From assembly GCF_009684755.1 (NCBI RefSeq), contig NZ_BLBC01000004.1, positions 1 through 64,000 on the forward strand: DNA of 64,000 nt, in the 5' to 3' direction. A model generated the notes under the pieces. That model saw nothing but the letters and a program-made list of their open reading frames with translations, searched no databases and was not told where the DNA came from. Of the stretch, positions 365 through 20,604 are shown piece after piece (positions within the stretch are counted from its first letter, which is position 1; the number at the start of each line of letters is the position of its first letter). Both the position numbers and the translations under genes were made by a program. The stretch comes from Capnocytophaga felis (lineage in GTDB: Bacteria > Bacteroidota > Bacteroidia > Flavobacteriales > Flavobacteriaceae).

Positions 365-410
365 AAAAAACATACGAACTATAAAATAAAAGTGTTCCTT
401 CTTTTTCCTA

Positions 411-1142
411 CTATGCAGAAGCGTTGTTATTATTTGACTTTTTACTTCTCCCGCTGATGTTGCCGTTAATCGTATTGATTATCTGTGTTACCGTGTCAGA
501 AAAGTGCGTAAATGATTCGGGATTGACAAAAGTCGCCGATGTTAAATACGGAATCAATCCCACATTGATTTGCTTTAAGAGTTGCTTTTTAAGGTCGGCA
601 GATTTGGGGCGTTTGCTCTGTGCTGCCATATTCTTCTCATAGGTTAAACGTCGTTGGTCGAAGTCCGCCTGAGCCGTTTTCAGTGATTCGATAGTAGGTG
701 CGATGCCTTCCAATGCCGAAATATCTGCTTGCAGACTTTCTTCGGCAAGGTCTTTCAGAAGTGATTCAATATGAGCCGATTCTACCGAATAGCTTTCGCG
801 GGTAATCTTCACTCCATACTTGGAAAACACAGCATACAGCCGCTCGCCCGATTTACGAAGGCTCTCCACAGGAATGTTAGCGTAACTTTTCAGATATTTA
901 TCAAGCTGGCGAACCAAGTCATCACGAACATCATCGGCTTTATCCACTTCCGAAAGGATTTTATCGCTCTTAATAGCTTGCGACAACTCTTCCGCAAGGA
1001 TTTCTATCTGCCCGAACACAGGTTTTAATATGGGGTCATTAGCAAGACCTACTTCGCTTTTATAAAGCATCACTAATTGCTTGGCGGTATCTGCCATTTC
1101 AGTGATGCGAACAGAAGAATTTAAAATTTTCATATCGTACAC
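411..1142 (-). CDS. DUF6261-like family protein
   Basis: A 243-residue soluble protein, mostly helical and rich in charged residues, with no signal peptide or membrane segment. Its start (MKILNSSVRITEMADTAKQL) and overall pattern fit the DUF6261 family, common in accessory regions of Bacteroidota and of unknown function. Residues about 150-190 look like a coiled coil, and the C-terminus ends in an Asn/Ser-rich tail (SKKSNNNNASA). The start could be ATG at 1142 or at 1133; the second gives the more usual N-terminus. It stands alone, with a terminator behind it and about 1 kb of repeat-rich DNA upstream. Family assignment is from memory of the sequence pattern; function unknown. Confidence 0.7.
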   Translation of the reverse strand: MYDMKILNSSVRITEMADTAKQLVMLYKSEVGLANDPILKPVFGQIEILAEELSQAIKSDKILSEVDKADDVRDDLVRQLDKYLKSYANIPVESLRKSGERLYAVFSKYGVKITRESYSVESAHIESLLKDLAEESLQADISALEGIAPTIESLKTAQADFDQRRLTYEKNMAAQSKRPKSADLKKQLLKQINVGLIPYLTSATFVNPESFTHFSDTVTQIINTINGNISGRSKKSNNNNASA

Positions 1143-1225
1143 AATTTTAAGTTTTTATTCAACTGAAACACTGCAATAATAATGCCAATTTTTATGAATA
1201 TTTTAGAATTGTTTTTAAGCCGCTG

Positions 1226-1289: not shown

Positions 1290-1329
1290 ATAACTATATA
1301 GCTAACTTTATATAATTTGTCTTTTACTT

Positions 1330-1585
1330 CTATTCTTTTGTCTTGAAACATAGTAAACGAATACTTGGAGTTTAGTATGTGATACCAAAAATTCAAGACT
1401 TTGGATACTCTGCTAAAAATCAATTCTCACATACTCCGCTTTCGCGGACTTTGCTAAAAATCTCCGAACTTGCTCCCTTCGGTTACTTCGAACAGCGGAT
1501 ATTTTTCACGCTTCATTCATTGATTTTCTTAACGCTTCGTCTCCAAGGTCGTAAACTCACTCTCAAAAATAACGACAATTTAAAG
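1330..1585. repeat. Divergent third copy of the island's dispersed repeat
   Basis: Scattered blocks match the two long direct repeats at 1824-2145 and 16673-16994: attcaagactttggatac, the aacttgctcc-type block, the acttcgaacag block and cttaacgcttcgtctccaa, all in the same order and orientation. Between the blocks it has diverged, and part is replaced by other sequence. It contains a plus-strand frame (1379-1588) that resembles no protein and is judged non-coding. It shows the repeat is a dispersed family and not just a pair. Confidence 0.6.
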
Positions 1586-1650
1586 TAGATTAGCTAATAA
1601 CCTTACAAAGATTTAATTGAGTTTTACACAATGTTAAATAAGTCCATAAA

Positions 1651-1823
1651 AAATCTGCGAAACCTAAAACACTACTGAAATGAGCTTCGCAGAGTCTGCG
1701 AAAGGAAAAACATTACTGAAACGAACATCGCAGAGTGTGCGAAGGGTAAAACATTGCTGAAACGAATATCACAGAGTTTGCGAAGGTTAAAACTCCAGTG
1801 AGATATGTATCGCAGAATCTGCG
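1651..1823. repeat. 41-bp tandem repeat, about four copies
   Basis: The phrase (g)cagagtctgcg or a close variant ends at 1659, 1700, 1741, 1782 and 1823, a constant 41-bp step. Each unit runs from a taaaacatt.ctgaaa block to the cgcagagtctgcg block. The copies are imperfect. The array abuts the long direct repeat. One more unit sits at about 16634-16672, where it cuts into the integrase gene. The spacer-free layout and sequence drift argue against CRISPR. Confidence 0.85.
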
Positions 1824-2145
1824 ATGAGGAAATCAATGCTGTTTTAATAAAAAATGAATTTAGTGAAGCTTAAAACACTGGGGAAATGGGTTGTGTATAA
1901 TTTTATTTATACTTTTGTCTTGAAACAAAAGTATCAAAAATTCAAGGCTTTGGATACTTCGCTAAAAAATAGCTGTGTTTTCTAAATTTTCCAAACTTGC
2001 TCCTTGCAGTCACTTCGAACAGTGGAAAATTCTTAACGAAAACACAACTATTTTTCTTAACGCTTCGTCTCCAATGCCGTTGGCTCACCCTTGAAGTTGG
2101 TGGTGCTTGATTTGGTGAAAGACAAAATGCTGGTGAAATGAGCTT
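1824..2145. repeat. Long direct repeat, left copy
   Basis: About 322 bp that match 16673-16994 in the same orientation at a constant offset of 14,849 bp, with no indel and some twenty substitutions by eye. It includes acttttgtcttgaaacaaaa and the run ctgtgttttctaaattttcc. No convincing protein is encoded. Together with the right copy it brackets the mobilizable element and its cargo. Confidence 0.9.
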
Positions 2146-2173
2146 AGTTGAATTGATTAATTCTGTTAAGTAG

Positions 2174-2925
2174 TTATGATGTGCCAGCTAACTTCATTAC
2201 CGAATTTGCTAATCTTCTTTCTTTTTTAACTCCCGTTGTATAATATCTTTCGTCTATTCCAAAAAGTAAATTTTTCAAATCATCCTCATTACCTATACTA
2301 AACTTTTTATTCTCTTCCGAATATTCTAAATTAGGACAATATTCTTTAATATAATTATGTATTTGAAGCACCTCTTCCTGACTTAAAGTAGAAAGTATTT
2401 CGGACACTAATGCTATTCTTTGCCTGTTTGATTTATTGACTTTGCTTTTGTTAAAACCATTATGTAGTGATATGAAATCATTGTTTAAAAAAGATTTTGT
2501 TTCCTCATCAGTAGCCTCTTTATATAATTTGATAAGATTTGGAAATATATTCTTGGCATCAATTACCTTTCTAAAATACAAAGTATCTGTCGATTTTTTA
2601 TAGATTGCATCTGGATTTTTTTTAAGATAATTATAGGCTCATCTTTCTTTATCTCAGGTTCTCCATTTAATGAAAACCATCTTTTGTTGATAATATTACT
2701 ATATGTAAACCTTTGAAAACAAAAATAATCATCATCTTGGTATGCACAAAAATATTTTATTTTATCATATTCATTATTTCTTATTTGATGATGTTCTGCA
2801 CTATTGAAATCTTGTTTTAAAAATTCGATAGCATATTCAGTTGTATTAAAATGTGTAATACCAAACCATTCTTCTTCAAAACAAATCCATACTGATTTAC
2901 AGTAGATTGTGATCACATGGCACAA
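2174..2925 (-). pseudogene. KwaB-like (DUF4868-type) gene with a frameshift
   Basis: Two minus-strand frames join into one protein if one A is added to a run of eight (plus-strand T at 2616-2623). The joined reading passes through DEPIIILKK, NPDAIYKKSTDTLYFRKV and on to the C-terminus. The second half parallels the kwaB gene at 17137-17970: LYFRKVIDAKNIF against FYFKSYANANKII, YKEATDEETKSFL against FQEASEVMIEEFA, and LLFGIDERYYTTGVKKERRL against ILCFLNEQYYIGLITGKKFR. I infer a KwaB-family protein without a kwaA partner nearby. The N-terminus is uncertain: the frame opens with TTG at 2925 or GTG at 2916, and the N-terminal domain looks short. The shift may be a true mutation, a sequencing error in a homopolymer, or a slippage site. 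Confidence 0.6.
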
Positions 2926-2969
2926 ATATGATTTCTGAAATCGATTACAAACAATCGGTTGTATTATCT

Positions 2970-3482
2970 TTATTGCTCTGCTTTTTCAAGTTCTATTCGA
3001 GCTGTGAGCTCTTCTTGGTATGTGGTCATAAACTTGTTTAAGTCCATAAAAACATACCCAACCAAACGATAGAACAGATTCTTGTATTCTATCGTTTCTG
3101 TTGCAGTGAATAGAGTTTTACCACCTTCCATCGGTTCGAATGTTGCTTGCCATTCTCCTGTAAACATTTTACTATCCATCTCAAAACTGTAGAAAGAATG
3201 CGGTCTCTTCTCAAGTGTCTTAAAACGAATTGTTACACCATGGGTAGTCTCTTCCCATTCTTCAATATCCCCTTGGGTACGGATGATCTCCAAATCATCC
3301 AAAGAACTTCTATAATGCCAATCTTGATTGTTGGTCACGATAGCAAAAACGACATCAACAGGGGCATTCAAAATGCACTGTTTTGTCTCCGTTCTGATTC
3401 TCGGCAGAAGTGTTTCTATGAGCACGACAACCAATACAAGCAATAAAAGACCGCTCAATATTATGTACAACACATTCTTCAC
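2970..3482 (-). CDS. SRPBCC-type (START-like) membrane-anchored protein
   Basis: A 170-residue protein with one N-terminal membrane segment (about residues 4-25, LYIILSGLLLLVLVVVLIET), followed by a domain patterned like SRPBCC/polyketide-cyclase folds (ILNAPVDVVFAIVTNNQDWH, then alternating strands with GEWQATFEPMEGGKTLFTAT). Such domains bind hydrophobic ligands; no ligand can be named here. The start is a GTG at 3482, only 3 nt after the stop of the broken AlbA-type remnant, so the two were once co-transcribed. A short gene-free stretch separates it from the KwaB-like pseudogene. Cargo of the island; specific role unknown. Confidence 0.65.
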   Translation of the reverse strand: MKNVLYIILSGLLLLVLVVVLIETLLPRIRTETKQCILNAPVDVVFAIVTNNQDWHYRSSLDDLEIIRTQGDIEEWEETTHGVTIRFKTLEKRPHSFYSFEMDSKMFTGEWQATFEPMEGGKTLFTATETIEYKNLFYRLVGYVFMDLNKFMTTYQEELTARIELEKAEQ

Positions 3483-3485
3483 GTT

Positions 3486-3984
3486 CTATTTGATTATTAC
3501 CCACTTTCCAGCCTTTGTAGAGCCTTCGTGCTTGATAACTCCTTCTTTAACCATCCTCCTAAGATAATAACGAATACTGTCTTCCGTTCTGTTTAACCTT
3601 TTTGCTAAATCCTTCCTTGTAACTTGCGGAAAGTTTTTTATTTCATCCAATATTTCATCCTCTATATTTCTTGGGTCTTTCTTGGGCTTTTCTTGGGTCT
3701 TTCCTGTGCTTTTCTTGGGTAGTTTCTCTTCCAAAGCCTTCTTCAAAATACTTTTTAGAAACGTTCTCAACTACTCGAAAAGCTGTAATCAATGAAAAAT
3801 CAAAAGAGGCTTGCCCGTTACCGTTTTCTTCCAACTCCTTCTGAACTCGGTAGACTCCACGGCTGAATCGGTTTACATAGCCCAAGACTTTCATAGCTTC
3901 GGCAATAAAGGGATTCCGATAATCGCTCACATTGGGGAAATTGTCGGTTGCAGAAGTTCCTTTTTCATTATCATAATTTTCCTG
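3486..3984 (-). pseudogene. Remnant of an AlbA/HATPase_c_4-type ATP-binding protein
   Basis: Two overlapping frames together give the C-terminal third of a protein like the intact gene at 4597-5943. The first frame (from a stop at 3985-3987) carries DYRNPFIAEAMKVLGYVNRF and VYRVQKELEENGN, typical of the end of the HATPase_c_4 domain. The second carries a winged-helix tail (ILDEIKNFPQVTRKDLAKRL, then DSIRYYLRRMVKEGVIKHEG). They join by a frameshift somewhere in the charged linker at about 3655-3775. The AlbA part and most of the ATPase part are missing at the 5' end. No usable start codon leads the first frame. Dead gene, probably left after a recombination that placed the GNAT gene upstream. 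Confidence 0.7.
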
Positions 3985-4027
3985 TTATCTCCATATGTAA
4001 TATCAGGTAATCTTTACCCATCTATCT

Positions 4028-4483
4028 TCATTTCAACTCTTTCCTCAACATAATCATATCTTTTAGTATTATCCCATTTTCGTAAATTGGCTGGGCATAA
4101 TTCTCTAGAAAAAAGTTTTCTTTTATCGCATACTTCGAATAACCATTCTTCTCGTAAAATTGAATCTGTTTTGTTCCGCAATCAGCTGTGCCGACAATAA
4201 TGGTTATATAACCACCTTTTCTGGCAATTTCTTCTGCTTTTTTCAGAATCCAGCTACCCAGCCCTTTCCCCTGATATGCAGGAGAGATAGCTATGTTTTT
4301 TATTTCAGTCGTTTGTTTATCTACTGGCAACAGACATATCACACCTACTATTTTTCCCTGTTGTTTTGCTATGTAAACATCTGAATAAGGAAGATACTTG
4401 TTTATAGCTGCAACTGTTTCGTCTGCTAACAGAAGTAGATTATAGGGGTAACACTTTTCTATTCTACTGAAGATAAAGTCCAT
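4028..4483 (-). CDS. GNAT family N-acetyltransferase
   Basis: A 151-residue single-domain protein, usual size for a GNAT. The acetyl-CoA loop is visible as ISPAYQGKGLGSWILKKAEE (Q-x-x-G-x-G/A pattern), preceded by the beta-4 strand GVICLLPV and followed by the late strand QIQFYEKNGYSKYAI. Such enzymes move an acetyl group from acetyl-CoA to an amine; the substrate cannot be told. The ATG at 4483 fits the domain start. It stands between the intact AlbA-type gene and the AlbA-type remnant, on the same strand, and is probably cargo rather than part of the defence operon. Confidence 0.85.
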   Translation of the reverse strand: MDFIFSRIEKCYPYNLLLLADETVAAINKYLPYSDVYIAKQQGKIVGVICLLPVDKQTTEIKNIAISPAYQGKGLGSWILKKAEEIARKGGYITIIVGTADCGTKQIQFYEKNGYSKYAIKENFFLENYAQPIYENGIILKDMIMLRKELK

Positions 4484-4596: not shown

Positions 4597-5943
4597 TTAA
4601 GGGAACAATTTAACTTTTAACTGCTTGCCCAATACTGTCAGCCGATATTTTTGCAGACTACTATTAGGTTTATTGGGGATAGTCATTTCTATAAATCCTT
4701 GTTCTAATGCAGGCTTTAAATAATTTGAACGGAAATTTTCTCTATGAGAAAGACCCAATTTTTCTTGTATCTCTTGCCTATCCATCTCCTTGCTCATTAT
4801 CCTAACCAGTTCTTTAACTTGCTCGGTTACTTGCTCGGTTACTTGCTCGGTTACTTGCTCGGTTACTTGCTCGGACACTGGAAATATCATTCGTAAAAAG
4901 TTCTCTGTAAACTTGAAACATTCTTTTCCGTAACTGTTCAAAATACGTGGGACACCAGACCCTAAGTGTTCTACTAAATCTAAATCTCGAAATACGCGCA
5001 TTAATTCTTTATTGCGTGGCACCGAATAGCCTTCAAAGAACTCCTTCTCTGTCATGCCTTGTGGCAAACTGCCAAATGATGTAATCTCAATTCTATCATC
5101 AAAGAACTCAAATTTAGGTGGCACTTCCGAGGTATAATCGTTATGAACAATGGCATTAATCACAGCTTCACGCAAAGCGACAGGGTTCCATAATTTTGTT
5201 TCTTTCCGTTCTTTGGGTGTGATTTTTGCCAGTGTTTTATTTTCGACTTCAATTTTATCCAATACTTGTTTGGTTGCCTTTATTAACGAACAATACCCAT
5301 ACTCGTTGTTTTCTGTCAAGTCAACACGATCAAATCCATTGTATTTTGCCACTTTCACAGATATTCCATTGGCATCAGCCAATAAGTATGCTACATAATT
5401 GTATTCGCCTTCTTCTGTAATCAGCTCCAAATTGGACGTAAACTGCTGATTTAGTGTTTTCCCTGATCCCTCGTAGTATATCTTAAGTTGCTCAAAAGTA
5501 AGGTTCTGGTTTGGAGACTTGATTTTGCCAATGGAGTTCCGAGTACGTTTGGCAAATAGAGATTCTATCATCTTTACGGACATTGGTTCAGCAGAAGTAC
5601 CGACACGAATGAATGTGCCTCTTTCCGACATCCCAAGTTTCTTGATATAGTACGGCTTTTCCGTTCCACTTGCCAGAGTAATCTTGATCACGTTCTTTGA
5701 ATCAACACCTTCTACTGAGACATCAAATAATCCCATACATGATGGCATAATGTTATTCTTCAGTCGATCTTTGATTTTGAGCATATCACCATCAATATCT
5801 GAAACGCCAACAGCTTTCCCTGTTTTGTCGATTCCAATATAAATTACGCCTCCTTCGTGATAATTCAGAAAAGCGATTGCCTCTTTTTCCAAATCATCTA
5901 TAAGTTCTTGTTTGTATTCTATACGGTTGGTTTCAGAATTCAT
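4597..5943 (-). CDS. AlbA_2 (Schlafen-fold) / HATPase_c_4 ATP-binding protein
   Basis: A 448-residue protein. Residues about 4-125 form an AlbA_2 domain (ETNRIEYKQEL, AFLNYHEGGVIYIGIDKTGK), a Schlafen-like nucleic-acid-binding fold. Residues about 250-365 form the HATPase_c_4 domain (LREAVINAIVHNDYTS, then DDRIEITSFGSLPQGMT and LVEHLGSGVPRIL). The tail from about 380 is a winged helix. Between them lies a TEQV run coded by a 12-bp tandem repeat. Such proteins often accompany mobile elements and are thought to act as regulators or in defence; this is not proven. The start lies 26 bp behind the helicase stop, the same strand and a similar gap as between the XRE gene and the helicase, so the three probably form an operon. 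Confidence 0.85.
   Translation of the reverse strand: MNSETNRIEYKQELIDDLEKEAIAFLNYHEGGVIYIGIDKTGKAVGVSDIDGDMLKIKDRLKNNIMPSCMGLFDVSVEGVDSKNVIKITLASGTEKPYYIKKLGMSERGTFIRVGTSAEPMSVKMIESLFAKRTRNSIGKIKSPNQNLTFEQLKIYYEGSGKTLNQQFTSNLELITEEGEYNYVAYLLADANGISVKVAKYNGFDRVDLTENNEYGYCSLIKATKQVLDKIEVENKTLAKITPKERKETKLWNPVALREAVINAIVHNDYTSEVPPKFEFFDDRIEITSFGSLPQGMTEKEFFEGYSVPRNKELMRVFRDLDLVEHLGSGVPRILNSYGKECFKFTENFLRMIFPVSEQVTEQVTEQVTEQVTEQVKELVRIMSKEMDRQEIQEKLGLSHRENFRSNYLKPALEQGFIEMTIPNKPNSSLQKYRLTVLGKQLKVKLFP
4817..4874 (-). repeat. 12-bp in-frame tandem repeat coding TEQV units
   Basis: Plus-strand acttgctcggtt is repeated four times exactly, with a fifth partial copy. Because the unit is 12 bp, gain or loss of copies keeps the frame and changes the number of Thr-Glu-Gln-Val blocks (now four, after an initial SEQV). 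Slippage would alter only the linker between the ATPase domain and the winged helix. Confidence 0.9.
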
Positions 5944-5969: not shown

Positions 5970-8900
5970 TCAAATATTTGAATAAACAACTAATTCAACA
6001 TTGCCCAAAGTGTGAAGATAATGATGTGTGTTCCCTAAAAGCTGTAAAATATCCATAGATGCATTCGCCTTACTTAAAGCAGGTTGAACAATGTAAATAT
6101 GAAATTTTGTTTCTTTTTTCCATTTCGCAGCCATTAAAACGTTCTCTAAATCTTCTTCTGTTCCTTTTATGAATCGGCTACAAATTATTCCATTTAATGA
6201 TTTTTCTTTGCGTTTGAATAAATGGTCAAAGAAATCCTTTCCCTTTCTGAATTTGTATTTCCAATTCAATGATTTTTGGGCTTGCCCGCAAACATGATAG
6301 AAATTATTAATATCATTACTTACTCTCCCTCCTATAGCTCCTTTTAAGTGAAACAAATGGATTTCTATATGTGTTGGCAGGTCTTTTATACCTACAATAT
6401 CTGCAATTTCTCCTTTTCCATCATCATCGTAAACAATATCAAAGTCATTTCTGATTTTGTTTATAAAGTAATACTGAATGGAATCTTGAACATATGGAGC
6501 AATGTCTTGAGATTCACGTCTCAAATTTACTCCTGCCCAATTATCTGTAATGATGTTGTCTAAAGGAATGACATCTGCTTCCATTTTTTCTTTGATATAG
6601 TTGTTTTGGAAAAGTTGAGAGCCGTCCGCGAACCAGATAGTAGGAGCAAATTCTTGTAAGAAACTTTCTATTGACTGTTGAGTTCCTCCATGGAAAACAA
6701 CAGCATCGATATTCGTCCTTTTTATTATTCTGTAATAAGGAATATCTTGATTCGTGGCTCCAAGTTCTATCTCAAAAATAATTCTAACATCAGAAGTATC
6801 AAATGAGAATTGTAATGGATTTGCCACATCATCTTCGACAATATTTAATTCAGAATTTGATAAATCATACGAGTTTCCATCAATCCGTATTTCAAATCTT
6901 GTTTCTGAAAAATCATACATATCAGGGTGCCAATCAACCATTATAGGAAGAATGTTCGGTCTGGAAACAATTTTCTCTATCTTCAGGGTATTTTGAAGTA
7001 CAATATTAGGATCTATATTTTCATTAGAGATTGTATCTCCAATGTTTTTACACCAACTGGCTAATTCATTCAGATTTCCCCTTAAATAAGACCATATTTT
7101 CCCACTTACAGAGCATCCAAGCGATATTTTTTCGCCTTCTTTATATCCAACTCCAAAAAAGTTGTTTTTTATTATAGTTCCTTGTTCTAAAGACTTAATC
7201 CCATCTTGTACTGCTTTTCCTATGAAGTTTTGAAATGTGACATCTTGACCAAAGCCCTTTCGTGCTCCGACATTAAACAATGTGAGCCTTTTTACATCAT
7301 GAAAGACTCTAAAAACATTCATTCCTGTTATTTTACTTTTGCTGGCTTGAGTATTGAAAACCGCTTCAATTAGTTTGTCTTTAGATAAGCCTTTAATGGA
7401 AGTATTCACGAATATACGATTCACATTGGGTCGTAAATCCCAATAAACTATGATAATATCCCATTGCAGATTTTTTACCACTTCAAAATTACCCCAATCC
7501 ACATTACTTATCTTGCCCAAAATAATAACCAAGGTATTATTACTGTTATCGCTATATTGATGTTCGTAAGTATCCAGATTAGATATTCCTTCTTTCCAAT
7601 TTAAAGGATTCCATTCGGTACTGTTATTATTATATATTACCGTGCTCAATGCTGGACGAATGCTTTGGAATGGTATTTTTGATTTGTCAAGATGCCCGAA
7701 TCTATCTAAGAAGTTTCTAAAATCTATTTCTTTTTGAGTTGCATTCTCATTCAATCGGGGTAAAATTAGATTCCAGTCAGCATTTTTGGCGTATAACTCG
7801 TCCAGTTCTTCATGAATGGGAGGATATGCAATATTAGTGATAAAACTGGCGTTCCCCAATTCACTATAGGAAGTCCTTGTGAAACGACCAATAAATTGAA
7901 GGGTAATAGGTAAACTTTGCCTTTCATCATGTATTGCAGCTATTTTTAAGTTAGGCAAGTCGAATCCTTCACCTAACATGTTTACACAAACAATAATAGA
8001 ATGCTCTCCTCTTTTGATAGCCTCAATCTTTTTATCCAATCCACCAATATTTGTATAAACCATCACGGGATTGAGGTCTTCATACTGTTTGTAGTGTTCG
8101 AAAACCTCTTTTGCTCTGATTTTATCTCTACATCGAGCCATGATTATGTGATTATAACCATTAGCAATATCTTCTCTAAGTTGTTGAACGGCTCTCTCTG
8201 CTATTTTCTTATCCGCAAGTTTGCGATTATATTCCCTTATGGGCAAATAGTTTATCTGCTTATAATATCTTTGTTCCTGTGCTTTGCGAAGAGAAAAATT
8301 GAAAATTATTTTGCCTTGTAAATTCTTTCCATCATTTCTGTATGGAGTTGCCGTAAATAGAAACACTTTTTCTTTATCAAAACGGTCAATCAACTCTTTC
8401 CATGTTTGCGCTTCCGAATGATGAGCTTCGTCAACAAATAAATGAGAAAATTCTTGAGAATATAACGTTTTTGCCTCTGCTGTGCTATCCGTTAAAATAT
8501 CCATTGTTGTAACTACAACATTTACTCTTGATATGAAATCGCGAAGAATTGCTATATCTGTAATACCGCTATTCATAATCCCGACAATGGGATTATGACA
8601 ATCTTCATCAACGATTCCATATTCTTTAAGTAATCCGAGAGTAATGAATTTTTCTGAAATTTGTGTTCGCAATGAATCGGAAGGGACAGAAACTAATAGT
8701 TTTTTGCATTTGTTTGAAATAAGGGTTGCTAACATTGTTTCTGTTTTACCTGTCCCTGTAGGCATTACTACAATTCCTTTGTCTTCTGGATTTTGCAAAT
8801 GGCTCAAAATAGAATACAAAGCTCCCATCTGGGGAGGGCGTAAACCTTTTATATTATTTGCCTCATCTTCTTGAATAAATTTGAACTTGTTTCCCCAAGA

Positions 8901-9218
8901 AGACAGAACTTGGGTAGGAGATAGAGTTTCAAATTTTGGATGCTTCAACCATCTTTTGACTCTTATAGTTCCTGCTTCCAAATCCTTGCTCTTTGGCTGT
9001 TTAGTTACTAATAAGATATATTCATATTGATTGAAAATATCTAAATTTTCGTTGCTCGTGAGCAGATAGTTTATACCACTAGAAGTAACCACAAATGGCT
9101 CTCTATGTAACAATTGTACATCCTCAAGAACTCCTCCTTGAGAGTAATGCTGCCAAACTTGATTACCATTTTGATTGTAAAGAAGTTTTCTTACCTTCGG
9201 TAAACTTAATGTCCCCAT
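5970..9218 (-). CDS. DEAH-type SF2 helicase with a possible nuclease tail
   Basis: A 1082-residue protein. The SF2 helicase core has Walker A PTGTGKTE at 153-160, DEAH at 263-266, motif III FTATPYRND near 288-296, and QFIGRFTR at 441-448 as motif VI. The C-terminal part near residues 935-985 has GEIADIVGI, IEIHLFHLK and GRVSNDINNFYHVCGQAQKS. The spacing D940, E952, H-L-K959 resembles a PD-(D/E)xK nuclease core, although the usual acid before the lysine is a histidine-leucine; that reading is inference. A long middle region (about 460-900) has no motif I know. The gene follows an XRE regulator by 21 bp and precedes the AlbA/ATPase gene by 26 bp. The layout suggests a phage-defence or restriction operon carried as cargo. 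An alternative is a DNA-repair helicase. Confidence 0.85.
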   Translation of the reverse strand: MGTLSLPKVRKLLYNQNGNQVWQHYSQGGVLEDVQLLHREPFVVTSSGINYLLTSNENLDIFNQYEYILLVTKQPKSKDLEAGTIRVKRWLKHPKFETLSPTQVLSSWGNKFKFIQEDEANNIKGLRPPQMGALYSILSHLQNPEDKGIVVMPTGTGKTETMLATLISNKCKKLLVSVPSDSLRTQISEKFITLGLLKEYGIVDEDCHNPIVGIMNSGITDIAILRDFISRVNVVVTTMDILTDSTAEAKTLYSQEFSHLFVDEAHHSEAQTWKELIDRFDKEKVFLFTATPYRNDGKNLQGKIIFNFSLRKAQEQRYYKQINYLPIREYNRKLADKKIAERAVQQLREDIANGYNHIIMARCRDKIRAKEVFEHYKQYEDLNPVMVYTNIGGLDKKIEAIKRGEHSIIVCVNMLGEGFDLPNLKIAAIHDERQSLPITLQFIGRFTRTSYSELGNASFITNIAYPPIHEELDELYAKNADWNLILPRLNENATQKEIDFRNFLDRFGHLDKSKIPFQSIRPALSTVIYNNNSTEWNPLNWKEGISNLDTYEHQYSDNSNNTLVIILGKISNVDWGNFEVVKNLQWDIIIVYWDLRPNVNRIFVNTSIKGLSKDKLIEAVFNTQASKSKITGMNVFRVFHDVKRLTLFNVGARKGFGQDVTFQNFIGKAVQDGIKSLEQGTIIKNNFFGVGYKEGEKISLGCSVSGKIWSYLRGNLNELASWCKNIGDTISNENIDPNIVLQNTLKIEKIVSRPNILPIMVDWHPDMYDFSETRFEIRIDGNSYDLSNSELNIVEDDVANPLQFSFDTSDVRIIFEIELGATNQDIPYYRIIKRTNIDAVVFHGGTQQSIESFLQEFAPTIWFADGSQLFQNNYIKEKMEADVIPLDNIITDNWAGVNLRRESQDIAPYVQDSIQYYFINKIRNDFDIVYDDDGKGEIADIVGIKDLPTHIEIHLFHLKGAIGGRVSNDINNFYHVCGQAQKSLNWKYKFRKGKDFFDHLFKRKEKSLNGIICSRFIKGTEEDLENVLMAAKWKKETKFHIYIVQPALSKANASMDILQLLGNTHHYLHTLGNVELVVYSNI

Positions 9219-10308: not shown

Positions 10309-11250
10309 TTAGTGCAGTACTCTGCGTATTCTGATTTTACTTTTAGCTGCCAACTTTCGGGCTTTCAGAGCCTGAATGTATTCGGCAAGCGTTGCGTCAT
10401 AATGAGGGCTATCAAAAAGTGAGAAAATGCTGAGTTGCCCAATGAGAGAATCAAGAGCATCCATCACACCTCCTGTTTCTGATGTTTTGAACTCTTGTTT
10501 TTCTGCCACTTGCAGTGCTTGATAGGCATTGTCTTTAATCTGCCTGTCAATCTTTGAGAAGCTATATTCTCTATCTACCCGGGAACCCGAAATCCGATTA
10601 CCATCTTTCTCAAAAATGATGCCTTGAATCTTATCCGTATTGCCATTCATTTTGAATTCCAAGCCTATACCTGATTGCTTCAGGGTTGCTTGCAGCTGGC
10701 CCCACGTCAAACTTTGAGGAATAGCTTTTTTGAGAGCGTCGTAAATCTCATATTTGGTTTTGTCGTTCCCTTTCAGCCGTTCACGCTTGACATTCTCTTT
10801 TCCAGAAGCAATATATAATCCGTATTTCTTCGTCAGTTCCATGCAGACCTTTGTGCTACGTAGTTTTTCATTTTGATCTGAAATTCTTCGACCATAGTTA
10901 TTAATACGATTGATTACTATGTGTATGTGTGGATGCTCTGTATCGTGGTGACGAGCAATAAGATACTGCGTGTTGGAGTAGCTCATTTTCTGTAAATATT
11001 CCTGTGCCACCTTGACCATAAAAGCATCCGTTAAACGCCCTTTATCTTGAGCTGAGAAATCCAAAGAGATGTGGGCTACAGGTTTCGTAATCTTGGGATT
11101 GAGCTTGCTTTGAGTAACAAAGCTTCGGATTATAGCTTCTCTATCTTTCAGACGAATACCTTCTGCCTGCAAGAGCTGGGCACGCTCTTTTTCCAAAACA
11201 TAGTTTATCACCCCTCGAAATCCTCTTCCCTGAACAATCTTAGCAATCAT
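10309..11250 (-). CDS. Relaxase / mobilization nuclease, MobA/BmgA type
   Basis: A 313-residue relaxase. It would nick oriT and attach to the DNA end to start transfer. The N-terminus (MIAKIVQGRGFRGVINYVL) and the metal-binding histidines in HPHIHIVINRI (about residues 106-116) are typical of the Bacteroidota relaxase/mobilization nuclease family. A candidate catalytic tyrosine is Y17 or Y102. Its start overlaps the end of mobC by 11 bp, which implies translational coupling. It is shorter than the multi-domain relaxases of plasmids and carries no helicase or primase part; the primase is a separate gene upstream. The gene looks intact, so the element may still be mobilized by a helper conjugative element even though its integrase is broken. 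Confidence 0.93.
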   Translation of the reverse strand: MIAKIVQGRGFRGVINYVLEKERAQLLQAEGIRLKDREAIIRSFVTQSKLNPKITKPVAHISLDFSAQDKGRLTDAFMVKVAQEYLQKMSYSNTQYLIARHHDTEHPHIHIVINRINNYGRRISDQNEKLRSTKVCMELTKKYGLYIASGKENVKRERLKGNDKTKYEIYDALKKAIPQSLTWGQLQATLKQSGIGLEFKMNGNTDKIQGIIFEKDGNRISGSRVDREYSFSKIDRQIKDNAYQALQVAEKQEFKTSETGGVMDALDSLIGQLSIFSLFDSPHYDATLAEYIQALKARKLAAKSKIRIRRVLH

Positions 11251-11602
11251 CTTCGATTCGTTTTATGATGTTGTCCAATCTCTCAGTCATCGCAAGGTTA
11301 TCTTGATAGACTCGTGCGTACCCCATAGCATTGGCTTTGTGGGCAATCTGATTGACATTATTGGCCATACCACTTAGCTGGCGAAGGTGGCTCATCAATT
11401 CGGAAGATAGTCTCTGCCTGACTATACTCGCAGCGATACAACGACAGACGTATTCACTTCGAGTAATCCCTGCAAGCCGCACTTTAGCTTTCAGAGAGTA
11501 GAACTCCTCGGTCGCCATTTTCAGTGTAACCTTATATTTCTTCTTTTCTACTGGTCGTTTGGGTGGGCGACCATTCGTATTGCGATTTTCTATTGTTTTC
11601 AT
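11240..11602 (-). CDS. MobC/BmgB-like relaxosome accessory protein
   Basis: A 120-residue protein when started at the ATG at 11602 (MKTIENRNTNGRPPKRPVEK). An upstream extension to 11734 would run through the palindrome and looks non-coding. The N-terminus is basic, followed by a ribbon-helix-helix-like segment (YKVTLKMATEEFYSLKAKVR) and the MobC signature region (ITRSEYVCRCIAAS, then LRQLSGMANNVNQIAHKANA). MobC proteins bind oriT and help the relaxase nick it. It overlaps the relaxase start by 11 bp, and the putative oriT palindrome lies about 55 bp before its start. Confidence 0.9.
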   Translation of the reverse strand: MKTIENRNTNGRPPKRPVEKKKYKVTLKMATEEFYSLKAKVRLAGITRSEYVCRCIAASIVRQRLSSELMSHLRQLSGMANNVNQIAHKANAMGYARVYQDNLAMTERLDNIIKRIEDDC

Positions 11603-11657
11603 TGCTGTATTTGTTTTTGATTTATGAATAGACCAACGGGATGAGTCAATCCTCGAA

Positions 11658-11700
11658 GAGCAAGTTTGTGTTTTGGTCAGACCAAAACACAAACTTGCTC
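11658..11700. other. 43-bp perfect palindrome, candidate oriT
   Basis: Two perfect 21-bp arms with a single-base spacer, centred at 11679 (inner part gtgttttggtc-a-gaccaaaacac). It lies between the primase stop and mobC, the usual oriT position in small mobilizable elements. The arms are too long and mixed in base content for an ordinary terminator, and no T run follows on the minus strand. It could instead act as a terminator or a replication hairpin. The nic site cannot be placed from sequence alone. Confidence 0.6.
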
Positions 11701-11734
11701 CCCTAATAATCAAAGGGCTTGAATCCATACCCAT

Positions 11735-12625
11735 TCATCGTTTGAGTCCTCGACTTCTCATTCTCGGAGGAGAAATGAGTTCTTGATTTTTTCGACAGAG
11801 AAAATCATTCAAGTCCTTATGCCCCTCATAAAGGATGGAGCAATCATTAACGCAAAGATTCATTCTCCGAAGCACTTCAAGCGTTTTTTTCCCTGCTGCA
11901 TCGTTATCGAGATAAGCGTTAACAATGGCATATTTCGAGAGTAAGGAATGAGCCTTTTGGAGATTGTTTACAGAATTCAGTACAATCGCAGATTCAGTAT
12001 TTCTGTCAGGATAAAGGGTACAAAAACTCAAGTAATCTATAAATCCTTCAAAGAGATTGACAGTGTCCGTATTTCGATCAAAGGAGGAGACACTGGAAGG
12101 AGGAAAACAACCTTTGAAATAGAGATTACGAATAGCATAACCTCCCAAGTCGTTGGGCATTCCGATAGCGTAATAAGTACGCCCTTTTACTTGATAGTGA
12201 ACCTCACGACAGTACCGTTTCGCCACAGAACAATCAATCTTACGGTCTTGCAGATATCTCAGCAAATTTGGGTGAAGCAAAGAGATGGCTTTGATTATTT
12301 TCATTTCTTCTCGACTCTCTGCCTGTCGGTCAAAGTCGTTCTGCGTAAGAGGGCTAATCTCTACACAGTTGTCTAACAGTCCAATTGCTTGAGACAGCGT
12401 GCAGCCATGTAGTTTCATTACCAAATCAATTATGCTGCCACCTTCTCCGCTTCCAAAGTCATACCAGAGACTTGCTCTGTAATCAACCTTGAAACTTGGA
12501 CTACTCTCTTCCCGAAAAGGACTTCTATACATTCCATAAGTCGTATACTCCTTCACTGGGTAATGGCCTTTATTAGCCAAATAATCCTTCAGAGATAAGG
12601 ATTTTATATGTTCAATATTCATCAT
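11735..12625 (-). CDS. Toprim/CHC2-like primase of the mobilizable element
   Basis: A 296-residue DnaG-type primase. The N-terminus has the zinc-finger-like fold but without its cysteines (YGMYRSPFREESSPSFKVDY, then WYDFGSGEGGSIIDLVMKL). The Toprim core follows: NLFEGFIDYLSF with the catalytic Glu near residue 194, AYLDNDAAGKKTLEVL with the DxD-type acid pair, and a late HKDLNDFL. It likely primes synthesis on the transferred strand. It lies on the same strand as the VirE-like gene upstream (240-bp gap) and mobC downstream. The C-terminal tail is Arg-rich. Confidence 0.88.
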   Translation of the reverse strand: MMNIEHIKSLSLKDYLANKGHYPVKEYTTYGMYRSPFREESSPSFKVDYRASLWYDFGSGEGGSIIDLVMKLHGCTLSQAIGLLDNCVEISPLTQNDFDRQAESREEMKIIKAISLLHPNLLRYLQDRKIDCSVAKRYCREVHYQVKGRTYYAIGMPNDLGGYAIRNLYFKGCFPPSSVSSFDRNTDTVNLFEGFIDYLSFCTLYPDRNTESAIVLNSVNNLQKAHSLLSKYAIVNAYLDNDAAGKKTLEVLRRMNLCVNDCSILYEGHKDLNDFLCRKNQELISPPRMRSRGLKR

Positions 12626-12719
12626 GTTTTTCTAAGTTTTAGAGATTTTCCTTACTACATGAATATGGATGGATAACTCCTTTACAGTGAAAAGAAAAAG
12701 AGTCGTAACCTGTTTTCTT

Positions 12720-12835
12720 GTAGTAGCATTATTTAGTGCGAGTAGTAACTCTGTTGTAAGACAGATTATAAAACCATACTACACGCTCAATCTTTTTTCA
12801 TTCACTGGATTAAATCCTCTTGTAGTAAGTAGTAA
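12720..12835. repeat. Cluster of GTAGTAA heptamers between virE-like and primase genes
   Basis: GTAGTAA occurs at 12742-12748, 12822-12828 and 12829-12835, with a variant GTAGTAG at 12720-12726 and an inverted copy at about 12653-12659. The gap holds no convincing gene. Repeats of this kind next to primase and VirE-like genes could bind a replication or regulatory protein. The motif is short and the evidence weak. Confidence 0.3.
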
Positions 12836-12864
12836 CTGTAATTTATCAATAGGTCAAAAGGAAC

Positions 12865-14058
12865 TCACGAACGGATTGGAAAGACCTTTCTGATATGATA
12901 GACATACATAGGGTTACCTCCTATCCGTCGGGACTTTCGTTCAAATCCTGCTTTGCGCAGAGCTTCTCCCATTCGTTTTTCGGAGAGGTTCAGCGTAGTA
13001 TATCCACGCAAATAATTCAGAACTTCCGAAGTGGTCATATAAGACTCTTCCGTAGGACTTGGTTTCTCAAAGCCTTTGAGTAACATTTCGTATTCGACTG
13101 TCTGCACATGAAAGCCTTCGCTCTCTCGGTGCAACTCTGCAATCTCAGCATCATCAAACCAGTACCGATCCCCACTTTTCCAATACCACCAAGCCTCCGA
13201 ATAAACCTTATTGATATCAACCTGCTTAGCAGCTTCTATGTCAATAGCTTCTACCTCAAAAGGAAGAAACCTGCGGCTACCCGTCGGATCTGTAAGGAAG
13301 TCATTGCCATTTACCGAAGCCATAAAACTGGCTAAGTGAGGATACTCTTCGATGTACGTATCGTATGGTCTGCGATACTTAACCCGTGGAGTAGTAATGA
13401 GATTCTTCAACTCATTTTTGTCTCTTTTGTTGAGGGCTTTGAGTTGGTCGTCGATATTGATAAACAGGTATTCGGCTATAAGGGTCTGCGTATCCTTGTT
13501 TTGAGGGTCAATGGTACCTGTAAACAAATATGCTTTCAGCTCTACGGGACAAAGCAAGTCTAAGAAAGTGGTCTTGAACTTACCCTGCTCTCCAGTCAAA
13601 ACCAGACAGGTGTGATTGCGACAGAACAAATCATCCATCGCATTCGCCACCACTGCAATAAGCCATTTGGTCAGATAAGTTTGCCACTTATCAGGATTCC
13701 GAACCGTTACGCACGAAGCCAAGTGAATAATCTCCGAGTCCTCTCCATCGTTCCAATTCGATAGTTTTTGGAAATACTCTTGTACAGGATTGATACGCGG
13801 GCAGAAATCACTTTCCAATATCGCTCGTATATTCTCTGCCGAGGTACTGATACCTTCTGAAGAATCCAATAGCCGTCGCATGGAGTTGATGTCGAATTTA
13901 CCGAGTGGGAAGAAAGGTTCTTCTTTATTCGAGTATCGAAACTCCGTGCGACTTTTTACGGTATTGAATCGAAAGTCATAGTGCTCTCTTAGAAAGGACT
14001 CTATCCGTTCATTCTTGGATTGCTTCCCTTCTGGTCGTTCATCCATTTCTTCTTTCAT
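12865..14058 (-). CDS. VirE/VapE-like P-loop ATPase
   Basis: About 397 residues from the ATG at 14058, chosen because the longer frame to 14157 overlaps the excisionase-like gene. The central domain is the virulence-associated E family: a P-loop in LVLTGEQGKFKTTFLDLL (GxxGxxKT form), a Walker-B-like strand EYLFINIDDQ, then LITTPRVKYRRPYDTYIEEY and FMASVNGNDFLTDPTGSRRF, the family signature. These resemble SF3-type helicases and likely drive replication of the element after excision. The start lies 13 bp after the HTH gene stop, on the same strand. The C-terminal ~100 residues look like a winged-helix DNA-binding part. Confidence 0.9.
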   Translation of the reverse strand: MKEEMDERPEGKQSKNERIESFLREHYDFRFNTVKSRTEFRYSNKEEPFFPLGKFDINSMRRLLDSSEGISTSAENIRAILESDFCPRINPVQEYFQKLSNWNDGEDSEIIHLASCVTVRNPDKWQTYLTKWLIAVVANAMDDLFCRNHTCLVLTGEQGKFKTTFLDLLCPVELKAYLFTGTIDPQNKDTQTLIAEYLFINIDDQLKALNKRDKNELKNLITTPRVKYRRPYDTYIEEYPHLASFMASVNGNDFLTDPTGSRRFLPFEVEAIDIEAAKQVDINKVYSEAWWYWKSGDRYWFDDAEIAELHRESEGFHVQTVEYEMLLKGFEKPSPTEESYMTTSEVLNYLRGYTTLNLSEKRMGEALRKAGFERKSRRIGGNPMYVYHIRKVFPIRS

Positions 14059-14071
14059 CGTTGAATAGATA

Positions 14072-14428
14072 TTAGAAATGAGAGAGCTTAGCCTTCTTTT
14101 CAGAGATAAAGAGCTTCGAGTCTTCGGCAAGTTCTCGCACCGTTTTTCTACGACCATTGGCTATCCATTCGAGCAATTCGTCCTCGAAGAAGTAGAGTTG
14201 CTTTCCATCCTTGTAGCATGGGAGTAAACGCTTACGCACAAGCGTATAAATTGTAGGCTTGGCCTTCCCGATGATTTTACACGCTTCATCTATCCCGATA
14301 GGAATACGTTTTGGAGAAATAACTGCATCTTGCCCTTTCTCGACCAATGCTTTGATCTCAGCTACTTCGTTCACTAAGTGAGCTACCGCCTTCGGTAGAT
14401 TCTCAAAAGAAATTTCGTTGTTGTCCAT
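14072..14428 (-). CDS. Excisionase-type HTH_17 DNA-binding protein
   Basis: A 118-residue protein with a coiled N-terminus (AVAHLVNEVAEIKALVEKGQ) and a MerR-like HTH_17 domain at about 48-95 (IGIDEACKIIGKAKPTIYTL, then VRKRLLPCYKDGKQLYFFED). These small proteins work as recombination directionality factors or activators in Bacteroidota mobilizable elements. It heads the replication-mobilization run and is separated from the VirE-like gene by 13 bp. A 227-bp gap divides it from the divergent HEPN-like gene, so both promoters should lie there. Confidence 0.88.
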   Translation of the reverse strand: MDNNEISFENLPKAVAHLVNEVAEIKALVEKGQDAVISPKRIPIGIDEACKIIGKAKPTIYTLVRKRLLPCYKDGKQLYFFEDELLEWIANGRRKTVRELAEDSKLFISEKKAKLSHF

Positions 14429-14655: not shown

Positions 14656-15135
14656 ATGTACAGAGAAGAGCTACGAACCCATCATTTTGGTACCTTTACA
14701 GTAAAAGGTATAGATATTATAACTATGGTAAAAGAAAATGCTAGAGAAAAGTTGTTGTTGCAAATTCAAGACGAAGTTTTAAAAGGGGGAATTTGTTTTG
14801 ATGGTTATACTTCATTTCAATTGGAAAATGCCGACATTTCATTCTGTGCTGGCGCAGATTTAGCATGTGTAATAATGTGCCAAGCAGCAATAGAATCGTA
14901 TATTAAAGAAGATGAAGCATTAGATTGTAAAAGCTTTTATGATATTATTGAGAATTGTTCGTGTTCTTCTGATTTAAAAAATAGGTTACATCACCTAAGA
15001 AAGTATCGAAACAAATGGATGCATAGGAAGGAGATTGACAGGGAAATTTCAATGGATTATGCAGAATTAGAGAGAGAAGCAATTAGTGCCTATCGTCTAA
15101 CACTGGAGGTTTTCCACTATTATCCGTTCATCTAA
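14656..15135 (+). CDS. HEPN-like protein with an R-x4-H motif
   Basis: The only plus-strand gene in the element: 159 residues from the ATG at 14656, or 136 from an internal ATG at 14725, which gives a cleaner start (MVKENAREKLLLQIQDEV). The C-terminal half is helical and contains LHHLRKYRNKWMHRKEID. The RNKWMH part fits the R-x4-6-H motif of HEPN domains, many of which are RNases in toxin-antitoxin and defence systems. No partner nucleotidyltransferase is adjacent. It converges with the next minus-strand gene and overlaps it by 8 bp. Fold and activity are inferred from this motif only. Confidence 0.6.
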   Translation: MYREELRTHHFGTFTVKGIDIITMVKENAREKLLLQIQDEVLKGGICFDGYTSFQLENADISFCAGADLACVIMCQAAIESYIKEDEALDCKSFYDIIENCSCSSDLKNRLHHLRKYRNKWMHRKEIDREISMDYAELEREAISAYRLTLEVFHYYPFI

Positions 15136-15870: not shown

Positions 15871-16635
15871 TTATTCCTGACTCTTTGTCTCTATCGTATC
15901 CAATTTTATGGCTTGTGCCGCTTTGTTTTTCTTTTCATCGACCACCTTTGCATATATTTGCGTTGTCTTCACATTCGTATGTCCCAGCATCTTGCTTACG
16001 GTATAAATGTCTGTACCGCTGGCAAGTTGTAGAGTAGCGTAGGAGTGGCGGAAGCAATGAAAGCTTATGGACTTTTTGATGCCTGCAGCCTCTATCCAAC
16101 GCTTTAGAGGTTTAGAAATCCATGACGGATTAGGTAAGTCTTCAAAAACCAGTTGTTCTGGCAATCTTCGTTCTCCACATAGTTGTAAGGCTTGTTCCGA
16201 AATAGGCATATACTCTACTCCTTTGGTTTTCTTCTGCGTGAAATTTAACTTGGCTTGACCATTTTCTATACTAATCTCCTTCCATCTTAATTTCTGAATA
16301 TCAGAGAGACGTAATCCTGTAAGTGCAGAAAAAAGAGAAGCTCTACGTAAAATTTCATTTTCACAAGGTGTTGAGGCTAACTTGTTTAGCTCTACCATAG
16401 TCAAATATTCTCTTCGAACTTCCTTACTGGGAATTCCTTTTATTTTCGCAGATAGGCCTGTAGTGATAATACCTTCAGTAAAGGCTTGTTTTAGTGCTGC
16501 TTTGAAAATAGAAAAGTATGTAGATGCTGTATTGTGAGATAACGTTCCTTTCTTTCCTTTGATATATGGAGCAGATAGAAGAAAGTGTTTAAAGTCTTCC
16601 GAGAATATTTTTTGCCATAATTGATAAAACTTTAC
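15871..16635 (-). pseudogene. Tyrosine integrase, N-terminus cut off by a repeat
   Basis: An open frame of 254 codons with no usable start at its beginning; a stop lies just before it at 16636-16638. It begins VKFYQLWQKIFSEDFKHFLL, part of the SAM-like core-binding domain, and the catalytic domain is complete: LTGLRLSDIQKL (first Arg), HCFRHSYATL (H-x-x-R), LGHTNVKTTQIYAKV (His and the Tyr nucleophile). Intact relatives have about 400 residues, so roughly 150, including the arm-binding domain, are lost. The break coincides with the start of a 41-bp repeat unit and the long direct repeat at about 16634. Translation from an internal ATG (16398) would give only the catalytic domain. The element probably cannot excise by itself. 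Confidence 0.88.
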
Positions 16636-16672
16636 CTAAAACATTGCTAAAATAAGCTTCGCAGAGTCTGCG

Positions 16673-16994
16673 ATGAGTAAATCAACGCTGTTTTAATAAA
16701 AAATGAATTTAGTGAAGCTTAAAACACTGGGGAGATGGGTTGTGTATAATTTTATTTATACTTTTGTCTTGAAACAAAAGTATCAAACATTCAAGACTTT
16801 GGATACTTCACTAAAAAATAGCTGTGTTTTCTAAATTTTCCAAACTTGCTCCTTACAGTCGCTTCGAACAGTGGAAAATTCTTAACGAAAACACAACTAT
16901 TTTTATTAACACTTCGTTTCCAATGCCGTTGACTCACTCTTGAAATTAACAGTGTTTGATTTAGTGAAATACAAAATGCTGGTGAAATGAGCTT
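16673..16994. repeat. Long direct repeat, right copy
   Basis: The partner of 1824-2145, in the same orientation at a constant offset of 14,849 bp and without indels. On its left it is preceded by one 41-bp unit (about 16634-16672); on its right it runs into a further partial unit (gcttcgcagagtctgtgat). Its insertion or a recombination here removed the 5' end of the integrase. The remaining DNA to 17136 shows nothing recognisable. Confidence 0.9.
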
Positions 16995-17136
16995 CGCAGA
17001 GTCTGTGATAAGTGCTTCTATAATGTTTTAGTAAAAATAAAATTAGACCGAGGTTACACAGGTAAAGTAATCATCAATGAATAATATTAAAGGCTTTAAG
17101 AGTATCATAATTTATAAGTGAAAAATCTTTCTATCT

Positions 17137-17970
17137 TTAGATTTCTCTTTTAGAATTAGTTCTAAATTTTTTACCTGTTATAAGTCCAATATAATATTGT
17201 TCATTCAAGAAACATAGTATATCTTTACACTTCTTTTTATCGTTAGGCAACTTAATTTTATCATTTTCTATTTCAATACCTTCAAAATTGAATTTTTTTG
17301 CAGAAGAAGTTATTTTTTTTATTGTTACAGTCTGTAATAAACCACTTTTTTGAATTAATGTAATTTGTTTTTTTATAGGAGATGTACTTTGTTTTAACCA
17401 ATCTTTATCTACGCTCAATAAAGAGTTGTTTGCAAATTCTTCAATCATTACTTCAGAAGCCTCTTGGAAAAAATCCATCAATGATATAATCTTATTAGCA
17501 TTAGCATATGATTTAAAATAGAATTTACCATTTTCATAAATAGCATTTACCATATTTTCAACAATCAGTGCGTTTTCAGAAAATTTATTATAAGTATTGC
17601 CATCAAAAAATAATAAGTGTTTATTGGTTAGCAACTTCCTTTTATCAAAATTTTGAAAGTAATACACATCATTTTCTATCCAAAATAAAGATTTGATTTT
17701 ATCATTAGATAAATCTAAATCATCTAAGCCAATACTATTAGTATTAGCTTCTCCTAGTTCATCCGAAAGTTGAAGTTCAACATAGAGAACCTCATCCTCA
17801 TCTATTCTATAATTTCCGTCAAATAAAATCTCTTCTGTTTCTTGAGTTTTTATTTTTGTTGAATTACCGATAAAAACATCCCTAATATCTCCCGTAATGT
17901 CTTGTGTTAAATCTATTTTTTTGACAGCTCCATTATCTAGCAATGCAAAAAAGTTACAAATGTTACTCAT
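17137..17970 (-). CDS. kwaB: Kiwa defence protein KwaB (DUF4868)
   Basis: A 277-residue soluble protein. The C-terminal two thirds show the KwaB pattern: KFYFKSYANANKIISLMDFF, FQEASEVMIEEFANNSLL, KKQITLIQKSGLLQTVTIKK and the end ILCFLNEQYYIGLITGKKFR-TNSK. In Kiwa, a two-gene anti-phage system, KwaB is the DNA-binding effector and works with the membrane protein KwaA. Here it starts 5 bp after kwaA on the same strand, as in described systems. It is a little shorter than typical KwaB (about 300 or more residues), mostly in the N-terminal part. Base composition is very AT-rich compared with dnaK. Assignment is from sequence pattern and gene pairing, without a profile search. Confidence 0.75.
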   Translation of the reverse strand: MSNICNFFALLDNGAVKKIDLTQDITGDIRDVFIGNSTKIKTQETEEILFDGNYRIDEDEVLYVELQLSDELGEANTNSIGLDDLDLSNDKIKSLFWIENDVYYFQNFDKRKLLTNKHLLFFDGNTYNKFSENALIVENMVNAIYENGKFYFKSYANANKIISLMDFFQEASEVMIEEFANNSLLSVDKDWLKQSTSPIKKQITLIQKSGLLQTVTIKKITSSAKKFNFEGIEIENDKIKLPNDKKKCKDILCFLNEQYYIGLITGKKFRTNSKREI

Positions 17971-17975
17971 AGTAT

Positions 17976-18533
17976 TTATGATTGGTTTAAAATTACATAA
18001 TCCGTTAACTGGGAATATTTAGTTATATTCTTTGTATTTTTAAGTTTCTCCTTAGAAATAATCGTATATGATACTTTTGCTTTTGTATTTATTTTATAGT
18101 AACGATATCCAAAAAAATTCAATAAAGGATTATAAAAATGTGTTTGTTTATTAATGAATATGATGATTATTATTAAAATAGAAAACCAAAAGATAGTGAA
18201 TATCAAACCTTTCTTATATAACTCTACACAAGGTAAAAAATAGCTTATAAAAAAAGGTATTAAGTTTACATCCACGCTGTCTATTGAATCCACTTCTATT
18301 TTTCGAACAGTAAGCTTTTTAAAAGCTACTTTTATTATCACATAACACAATAGCAAGAATATAGGAAATAAAAATATAAGATTTATTCTATTAAACAAAT
18401 CTTTCCAACTACTTATGAAAGTAATAGAGTCTCCTTGATTTATGCAATTATACATATCAACAATTCCAATTATTAACATAATTGGTGAATACGCTGTTAG
18501 TATAAATAAAATTTTTATAAAGTTTGAAAACAT
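17976..18533 (-). CDS. kwaA: Kiwa membrane protein KwaA
   Basis: A 185-residue protein with four membrane segments at about 7-28 (ILFILTAYSPIMLIIGIVDM), 48-69 (INLIFLFPIFLLLCYVIIKV), 88-104 (VNLIPFFISYFLPCV) and 107-128 (GLIFTIFWFSILIIIIIFIN). A cytoplasmic tail follows with FFGYRYYKINTKAK and a late QLTDYVILN. Four spans and a short tail are the KwaA layout; KwaA sits in the membrane and senses phage infection. It lies directly behind the dnaK terminator, in the same orientation as dnaK, and 5 bp before kwaB. The 75-bp gap to dnaK leaves little room for a promoter, so read-through from dnaK may contribute. Confidence 0.72.
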   Translation of the reverse strand: MFSNFIKILFILTAYSPIMLIIGIVDMYNCINQGDSITFISSWKDLFNRINLIFLFPIFLLLCYVIIKVAFKKLTVRKIEVDSIDSVDVNLIPFFISYFLPCVELYKKGLIFTIFWFSILIIIIIFINKQTHFYNPLLNFFGYRYYKINTKAKVSYTIISKEKLKNTKNITKYSQLTDYVILNQS

Positions 18534-18554
18534 ATTTTTTCTAAATCCTTAAAA

Positions 18555-18580
18555 CCCCACCCAATTAGTATCAGGTGGGG
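18555..18580 (-). terminator. dnaK terminator
   Basis: ccccacc pairs with ggtgggg across a 12-nt loop; on the minus strand it is followed by TTTT. It is 30 bp behind the dnaK stop and just before kwaA. Confidence 0.75.
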
Positions 18581-18609
18581 CTGTATTTATTGCCCGTCCG
18601 TGCTACGGA

Positions 18610-20604
<1,995 letters not shown>

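Follow-up and report, generated by a model that had tools for sequence, protein, structure and literature searches.

What the two genes directly behind dnaK in Capnocytophaga felis are, and why they should lie there, is the question raised by the stretch of DNA analysed here (the window: 64,000 nucleotides of contig NZ_BLBC01000004.1, starting at base 1 of the contig). A preliminary description had read two open reading frames (ORFs) of 185 and 277 amino acids (aa), 5 bp apart, as a Kiwa (kwaA-kwaB) defence system. Both ORFs are confirmed at their coordinates on the minus strand, co-directional with dnaK and separated by positions 17971-17975 (Table 1). We conclude with high confidence that the pair is an ordinary, complete two-gene Kiwa system directly behind dnaK. 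It is a further Bacteroidota example of an already known system, and it fills a slot where other members of the genus often carry different defence modules; the location matters more than the pair by itself.

Sequence profiles support the identification. The 277-aa protein matches five PADLOC KwaB models; the best, PDLC00229, gives a full-length match at E=1.3e-103, with residues 4-276 lying on profile positions 1-280 of 282. The 185-aa protein matches 11 PADLOC KwaA models (best 1.2e-30, residues 1-183), so that the profile search proposed in the preliminary description is positive for both proteins. A scan of the species genomes for KwaB relatives gave seven loci, and in all seven relatives fetched an ORF that aligns with KwaA lies directly upstream of KwaB. 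Because of the two E-values and this constant pairing, the pair is beyond chance. The Kiwa pair of Pseudomonas phage PfAC02a (OR790968.1) includes an annotated KwaB that aligns with the window protein at 31% identity, covering 100% of the query; that system is borne by a filamentous (Pf) phage, whereas the one in the window follows a core gene of the chromosome. What is observed for the window genes themselves is their order, their family membership, the fold ranking and the conservation of the pair. Neither frame is interrupted or shortened, the conserved residues are kept, the peptide ILCFLNEQYYIGLITGKKF is present in KwaB, and the kwaAB stretch is single copy in its own genome.

The suggestion that the N-terminal part of KwaB is short does not hold. 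Since six of the relatives have KwaB proteins of 278-281 aa, 277 aa is a normal length, and the profile is covered from position 1 by residue 4; together these rule out an N-terminal truncation. In the seventh relative (L008) the KwaB ORF stops early, at 229 aa. KwaB was found in 3/149 genomes of the family, its own included, a lower bound as one of several KwaB models was used; the other two matches are distant (E 3.4e-6 and 1.1e-5). Relatives of KwaB also occur in two phage records and one plasmid record; among viral contigs, a scan based on two peptide patterns from the KwaB alignment gave 126 candidate stretches, of which none was confirmed.

The predicted structures were compared with solved ones. 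In a Foldseek search of the PDB, ranks 1-5 for the KwaB model, itself of low confidence, are all KwaB chains, and solved KwaA entries rank first for the KwaA model, which places it in that fold. The preliminary description would have been refuted by a 277-aa protein with no KwaB profile match or with a predicted fold unlike KwaB, and neither was observed. Its four-span KwaA is plausible: the hydropathy plot has three strong peaks, and the low-confidence model has four membrane-length helices, the third of them short (91-105). Compared with the solved Kiwa structures (9mrg, 9mrr, 9mrx, 9mtn, 9nyu), the window pair has the same adjacency and order of kwaA and kwaB, full-length family matches, and models for which the solved KwaA and KwaB folds rank top, for KwaB at low confidence. 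The differences are that KwaA shares only 18-20% identity with solved KwaA in structure alignments, and that KwaB, 277 aa against 313-315 aa for the longest solved chains, has no sequence match to them. By sequence, KwaB is thus diverged from the solved KwaB proteins, yet one of the PADLOC KwaB models fits it well. The pair is a diverged relative that could be useful for testing which features of KwaA and KwaB are essential.

Several results weigh against the Kiwa assignment and have to be set beside it. The NCBIfam KwaA model matches at 3.6e-12 with 46.5 bits, against a curated cut-off of 100, and no NCBIfam model matched KwaB. Pfam names neither protein, with no DUF4868 match for KwaB at E<=1, and the DUF4868 description is reached only through the PADLOC KwaB models that carry that label. 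The sequence search of the PDB with KwaB returned no match to solved structures, the two structure models are weak (predicted local distance difference test scores of 52.7 and 64.8), and no row of the KwaB Foldseek search reaches E<=0.001. In addition, a Bacteroidota-type promoter pattern was not found in the dnaK-kwaA interval. That Pfam and NCBIfam leave the pair unnamed at their cut-offs would suit a membrane protein and a cytosolic partner of unrelated function that merely resemble Kiwa, but the profile and fold evidence is independent for the two proteins, their order is correct, and the location also hosts other defence systems; we regard such a coincidence as most improbable.

How the pair would act is drawn from homology. 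KwaA, in the inner membrane, would sense phage attachment or injection; KwaB would dock on KwaA and bind incoming phage DNA without cutting it, and this binding would block replication and late transcription of the phage. KwaA is tetrameric in the solved structures and KwaB is a dimer; a later model places both proteins in one complex (PMC12904381). According to an extract of PMC11514479, a Kiwa of Streptococcus thermophilus is active; the extract also cites a RecBCD-dependent pathway and a preprint in which the anti-phage effect of KwaB is independent of KwaA. By analogy with these studied systems, the window pair may form the complex, sense the phage, bind its DNA and protect the host. The preprint would fit a KwaB that acts largely alone, with KwaA mainly controlling it; however, KwaA is retained beside KwaB in 7/7 relatives and the later model has both in one complex, and we hold this division of labour to be quite unlikely. 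The pair might also be Kiwa by descent but silent, its genes intact and not expressed in this host. The dnaK-kwaA interval, with its terminator-like hairpin and lacking the promoter pattern, is consistent with silence, as is the decay nearby (a truncated integrase and, within the island, a disrupted KwaB-like gene), but silence is unlikely with both frames open and full length and the conserved residues kept.

We next consider the location of this Kiwa pair. Among 20 genomes of the genus searched, its own included, 18 have a full dnaK, G161 and G164 being the exceptions, and downstream flanks were taken from the 17 others (L033-L049), six of which end at a contig end within 6 kb. The comparison of the dnaK downstream region, also proposed beforehand, shows that the gene there varies between species and is often a defence system. 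A recognised defence system or component lies directly behind dnaK in 7/18 genomes: Kiwa in its own genome, TIR-TM in G151, SIR2 with HerA (in two ORFs) in G160, QatA with a weak QatB in G157, the cyclase, E2 and four-transmembrane effector of a CBASS (cyclic-oligonucleotide-based anti-phage signalling system) in G165, PD-Lambda-3_B in G155, and a ResIII gene with, after it, a type III methyltransferase (type III restriction-modification) in G156. Three further genomes (G153, G162, G158) have an element with a helix-turn-helix (HTH) gene and an integrase. In G154 the flank begins with a Schlafen/AlbA gene resembling window 4597-5943, in G163 with a 289-aa ORF and a Panacea protein, and in G166 with an SMC-like ATPase whose PADLOC matches are weak. 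G150 and G149 have uncharacterised ORFs (661 and 1060 aa, respectively), G152 a short ORF where its contig ends, and G023 and G159 genes that look ordinary by eye. A PD-Lambda-3_B match had been placed in G159; this was excluded, the match being located in G155. The uncharacterised slot genes (L033 421-1757 in G163, L036 427-2412 in G150, L039 718-3900 in G149, L035 13111-14874 in G166) are candidates for undescribed defence systems. A chromosomal anchor with such turnover of defence genes would be a simple way to find new ones.

Controls were drawn from the same genus. A single rule selected the first ORF of >=80 aa within a 1.5-kb flank, for dnaK (18) and for recQ, pyrD and hemA (19+18+20=57); left out were recQ of G161 (paralogue only) and pyrD of both G164 (gene incomplete at a contig end) and G156 (109-base flank without an ORF). 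The 18 dnaK-flank ORFs match 62 PADLOC families, 25 of which were listed. At E<=1e-10 the 57 control ORFs match five (by members: mad3 3, mad8 3, AriA 3, DolB 2, mad2 1; best 1.2e-33), presumably ABC-F and Lon proteins. A post hoc cut of E<=1e-40 keeps five of the dnaK ORFs (cyclase, SIR2, QatA, PD-Lambda-3_B, TIR-TM) and none of the control ORFs. The contrast of 5/18 with 0/57 gives a one-sided Fisher p=5e-4, unchanged when the own genome is left out (5/17 vs 0/54), and that with other genera (0/28 dnaK flanks) gives p=6e-3; these p-values are indicative, since congeneric species are only partly independent. KwaA (1.2e-30) is weaker than the best control match and fails the 1e-40 cut; therefore the slot test does not rely on the Kiwa finding. 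Among 60 genomes searched across the family, 30 gave dnaK loci (28 from other genera, the remaining two being the own genome and another of the same genus), and the 28 first ORFs of other genera plus that of G159 match a single PADLOC family at 1e-10 (mad2, one member, 2.9e-21), which does not indicate a family-wide hotspot. Genome pairs sharing a flank number 5/153 for dnaK, 11/153 for pyrD, 17/153 for recQ and 41/190 for hemA. The variability of the dnaK flank is thus only somewhat stronger than that of the controls; since gene order is fluid in this genus, the argument for a slot rests on its content and not on synteny. As described in an extract of PMC9122126, P2/P4 hotspots are likewise small slots beside a fixed anchor with turnover of systems; their anchor belongs to a phage or satellite, whereas the slot described here is anchored, in a single genus, by a chaperone gene of the chromosome. 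A literature search over listings of open-licence papers did not find a dnaK defence hotspot.

The sequences around the dnaK stop codon bear on how modules arrive. The own genome, G163, G166 and G150 have common sequence through the hairpin behind dnaK and diverge after it. G153, a close relative with an integrase element, departs exactly at the dnaK stop codon, and at this point G162, G158 and G154 carry element ends of similar sequence. A pattern search allowing up to 3 mismatches did not detect the native dnaK terminator in G153 or G151. Behind its SIR2-HerA genes G160 carries another dnaK 3' end (L045 ~3376-3934; G160:C1:541566-542129), 95.9% identical over 559 nt to G156 dnaK and 85.8% over 471 nt to the full dnaK of G160 itself; it is the only such copy among the window and the 17 flanks, six of which are cut short by a contig end. 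The full dnaK of G160 is mosaic, with blocks at ~200-800 that are 96.0-98.5% identical to G023 and a last block 95.7-97.4% identical to G157 and G165. These alignments point to between-species recombination within dnaK. The last block of the own dnaK, 98.7% identical to G150 against 83.0-92.0% in earlier blocks, is no more than a hint, the block being short. In the L044 element the stretches taken as its two ends share no word >10 bases, and site-specific integration in dnaK is unproved because a pair of attachment sites was not found. Separately, in a genome of another genus (G013), a partial dnaK copy lies ~4 kb behind dnaK (L148 6205-6624); it follows an 870-aa repetitive, secreted-looking protein, which is not a recognised defence system.

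Tentatively, the dnaK 3' flank in this genus might be a dedicated slot in which an integrase element entering at the stop codon and between-species recombination in dnaK swap defence modules, placed in the direction of dnaK, several with no evident promoter, and possibly read through from this stress-inducible chaperone gene; both the route of entry and the drive by dnaK are what we infer. In 17/18 genomes the first ORF points the same way as dnaK, against 34/57 controls (p=0.004) and 19/28 flanks of other genera (p=0.03). In seven genomes (own, G163, G166, G150, G151, G160, G165) this ORF starts no more than ~105 nt past the dnaK match. A Bacteroidota promoter pattern was absent from bases 301-800 of the oriented flanks in all seven and present in 6/11 others. 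A sigma-70 type scan of 16600-18700 found 7 sites against 12.1 in shuffles. Transcription of the modules by read-through from dnaK is thus a hypothesis, against the full extent of which the terminator-like hairpin seen by eye between dnaK and kwaA weighs; a terminator scan (loop limit 8) found none on the minus strand in the 76-bp spacer. If the modules depend on dnaK transcription, phage defence would be tied to the stress response.

Table 1. Features of the window around the Kiwa pair.
Feature	Position	Strand	Remarks
kwaA	17976..18533	minus	185 aa; membrane protein, beta-rich C-terminal part
kwaB	17137..17970	minus	277 aa; full-length KwaB; PADLOC PDLC00229; Foldseek PDB ranks 1-5 are KwaB chains
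dnaK	18610..20568	minus	ORF from first in-frame start listed; core gene anchoring the slot
Spacer, dnaK stop to kwaA start	18534..18609	minus	76 bp; terminator-like hairpin (by eye)
Intergenic repeat copy 2	16637..17000		directly behind kwaB; 336 nt at 93% to 1810-2145
Intergenic repeat copy 1	1788..2145		adjoins broken KwaB-like gene
Tyrosine integrase, truncated	15871..16606	minus	tblastn residues 166-409, 85%; Pfam Phage_integrase 2.2e-23
Rest of mobilisable element	10309..14428	minus	HTH_17, VirE-like, Toprim primase-like, NikA/MobC-like, relaxase (Pfam)
Second KwaB-like gene	2174..2925	minus	broken over two frames; no KwaA beside it
DUF6261 gene	411..1142	minus	Pfam 1.1e-23; also after dnaK module in G166, G150, G151

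The true dnaK start probably lies further in than the one listed; the gene is 75-97% identical to its matches in genomes of the same family and genus. As the preliminary description had proposed, the pair stands at the boundary of an island and a core gene, with the truncated integrase, relaxase, VirE-like and Toprim genes on its far side and dnaK on its near side. About 165 N-terminal residues are missing from this integrase by comparison with its intact 411-aa counterpart in L034; DNA homology between the two ends at 16606, ~30-50 bases before the repeat. The truncated gene belongs to the element that fills the same dnaK slot in relatives.

Past the relaxase the gene order is helicase-like, Schlafen/Fic-like, GNAT, Polyketide_cyc2-type, broken KwaB-like and DUF6261, the last with DNA matches in L035, L036 and L037. 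The helicase-like protein (1082 aa, 5970-9218) has ResIII and a PADLOC PbeA match at 3.5e-14, and the 448-aa protein at 4597-5943 has Schlafen/AlbA and Fic-like-C with a 12-nt tandem repeat (VTEQ units); the two are possibly further defence cargo. The C-terminal piece of the second KwaB-like gene (2174-2581) matches a PADLOC KwaB model at E=1.3e-12; 2563-2925 is its N-terminal part by eye, with no PADLOC match at E<=1, and tblastn of the intact KwaB against window 1-4200 gave nothing at E<=1. With its two-frame split, no adjacent KwaA and only the C-terminal piece matching KwaB, it was rejected as part of the Kiwa system. Inside the element, on the opposite strand, 14656-15135 (+) holds a DUF4145/HEPN-like gene (Pfam 5.7e-4, below cut-off). 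Near the start of the MobC-like gene (11658-11700) lies a perfect inverted repeat of 21 nt whose loop is a single nucleotide; it may be an origin of transfer or an artefact. The intergenic repeats belong to a dispersed family (seen at 1659-1860 and 16631-17044) of 41-nt units around CTTCGCAGAGTCTGCGA; the own genome has 13 matches, whether partial or full, counting the query.
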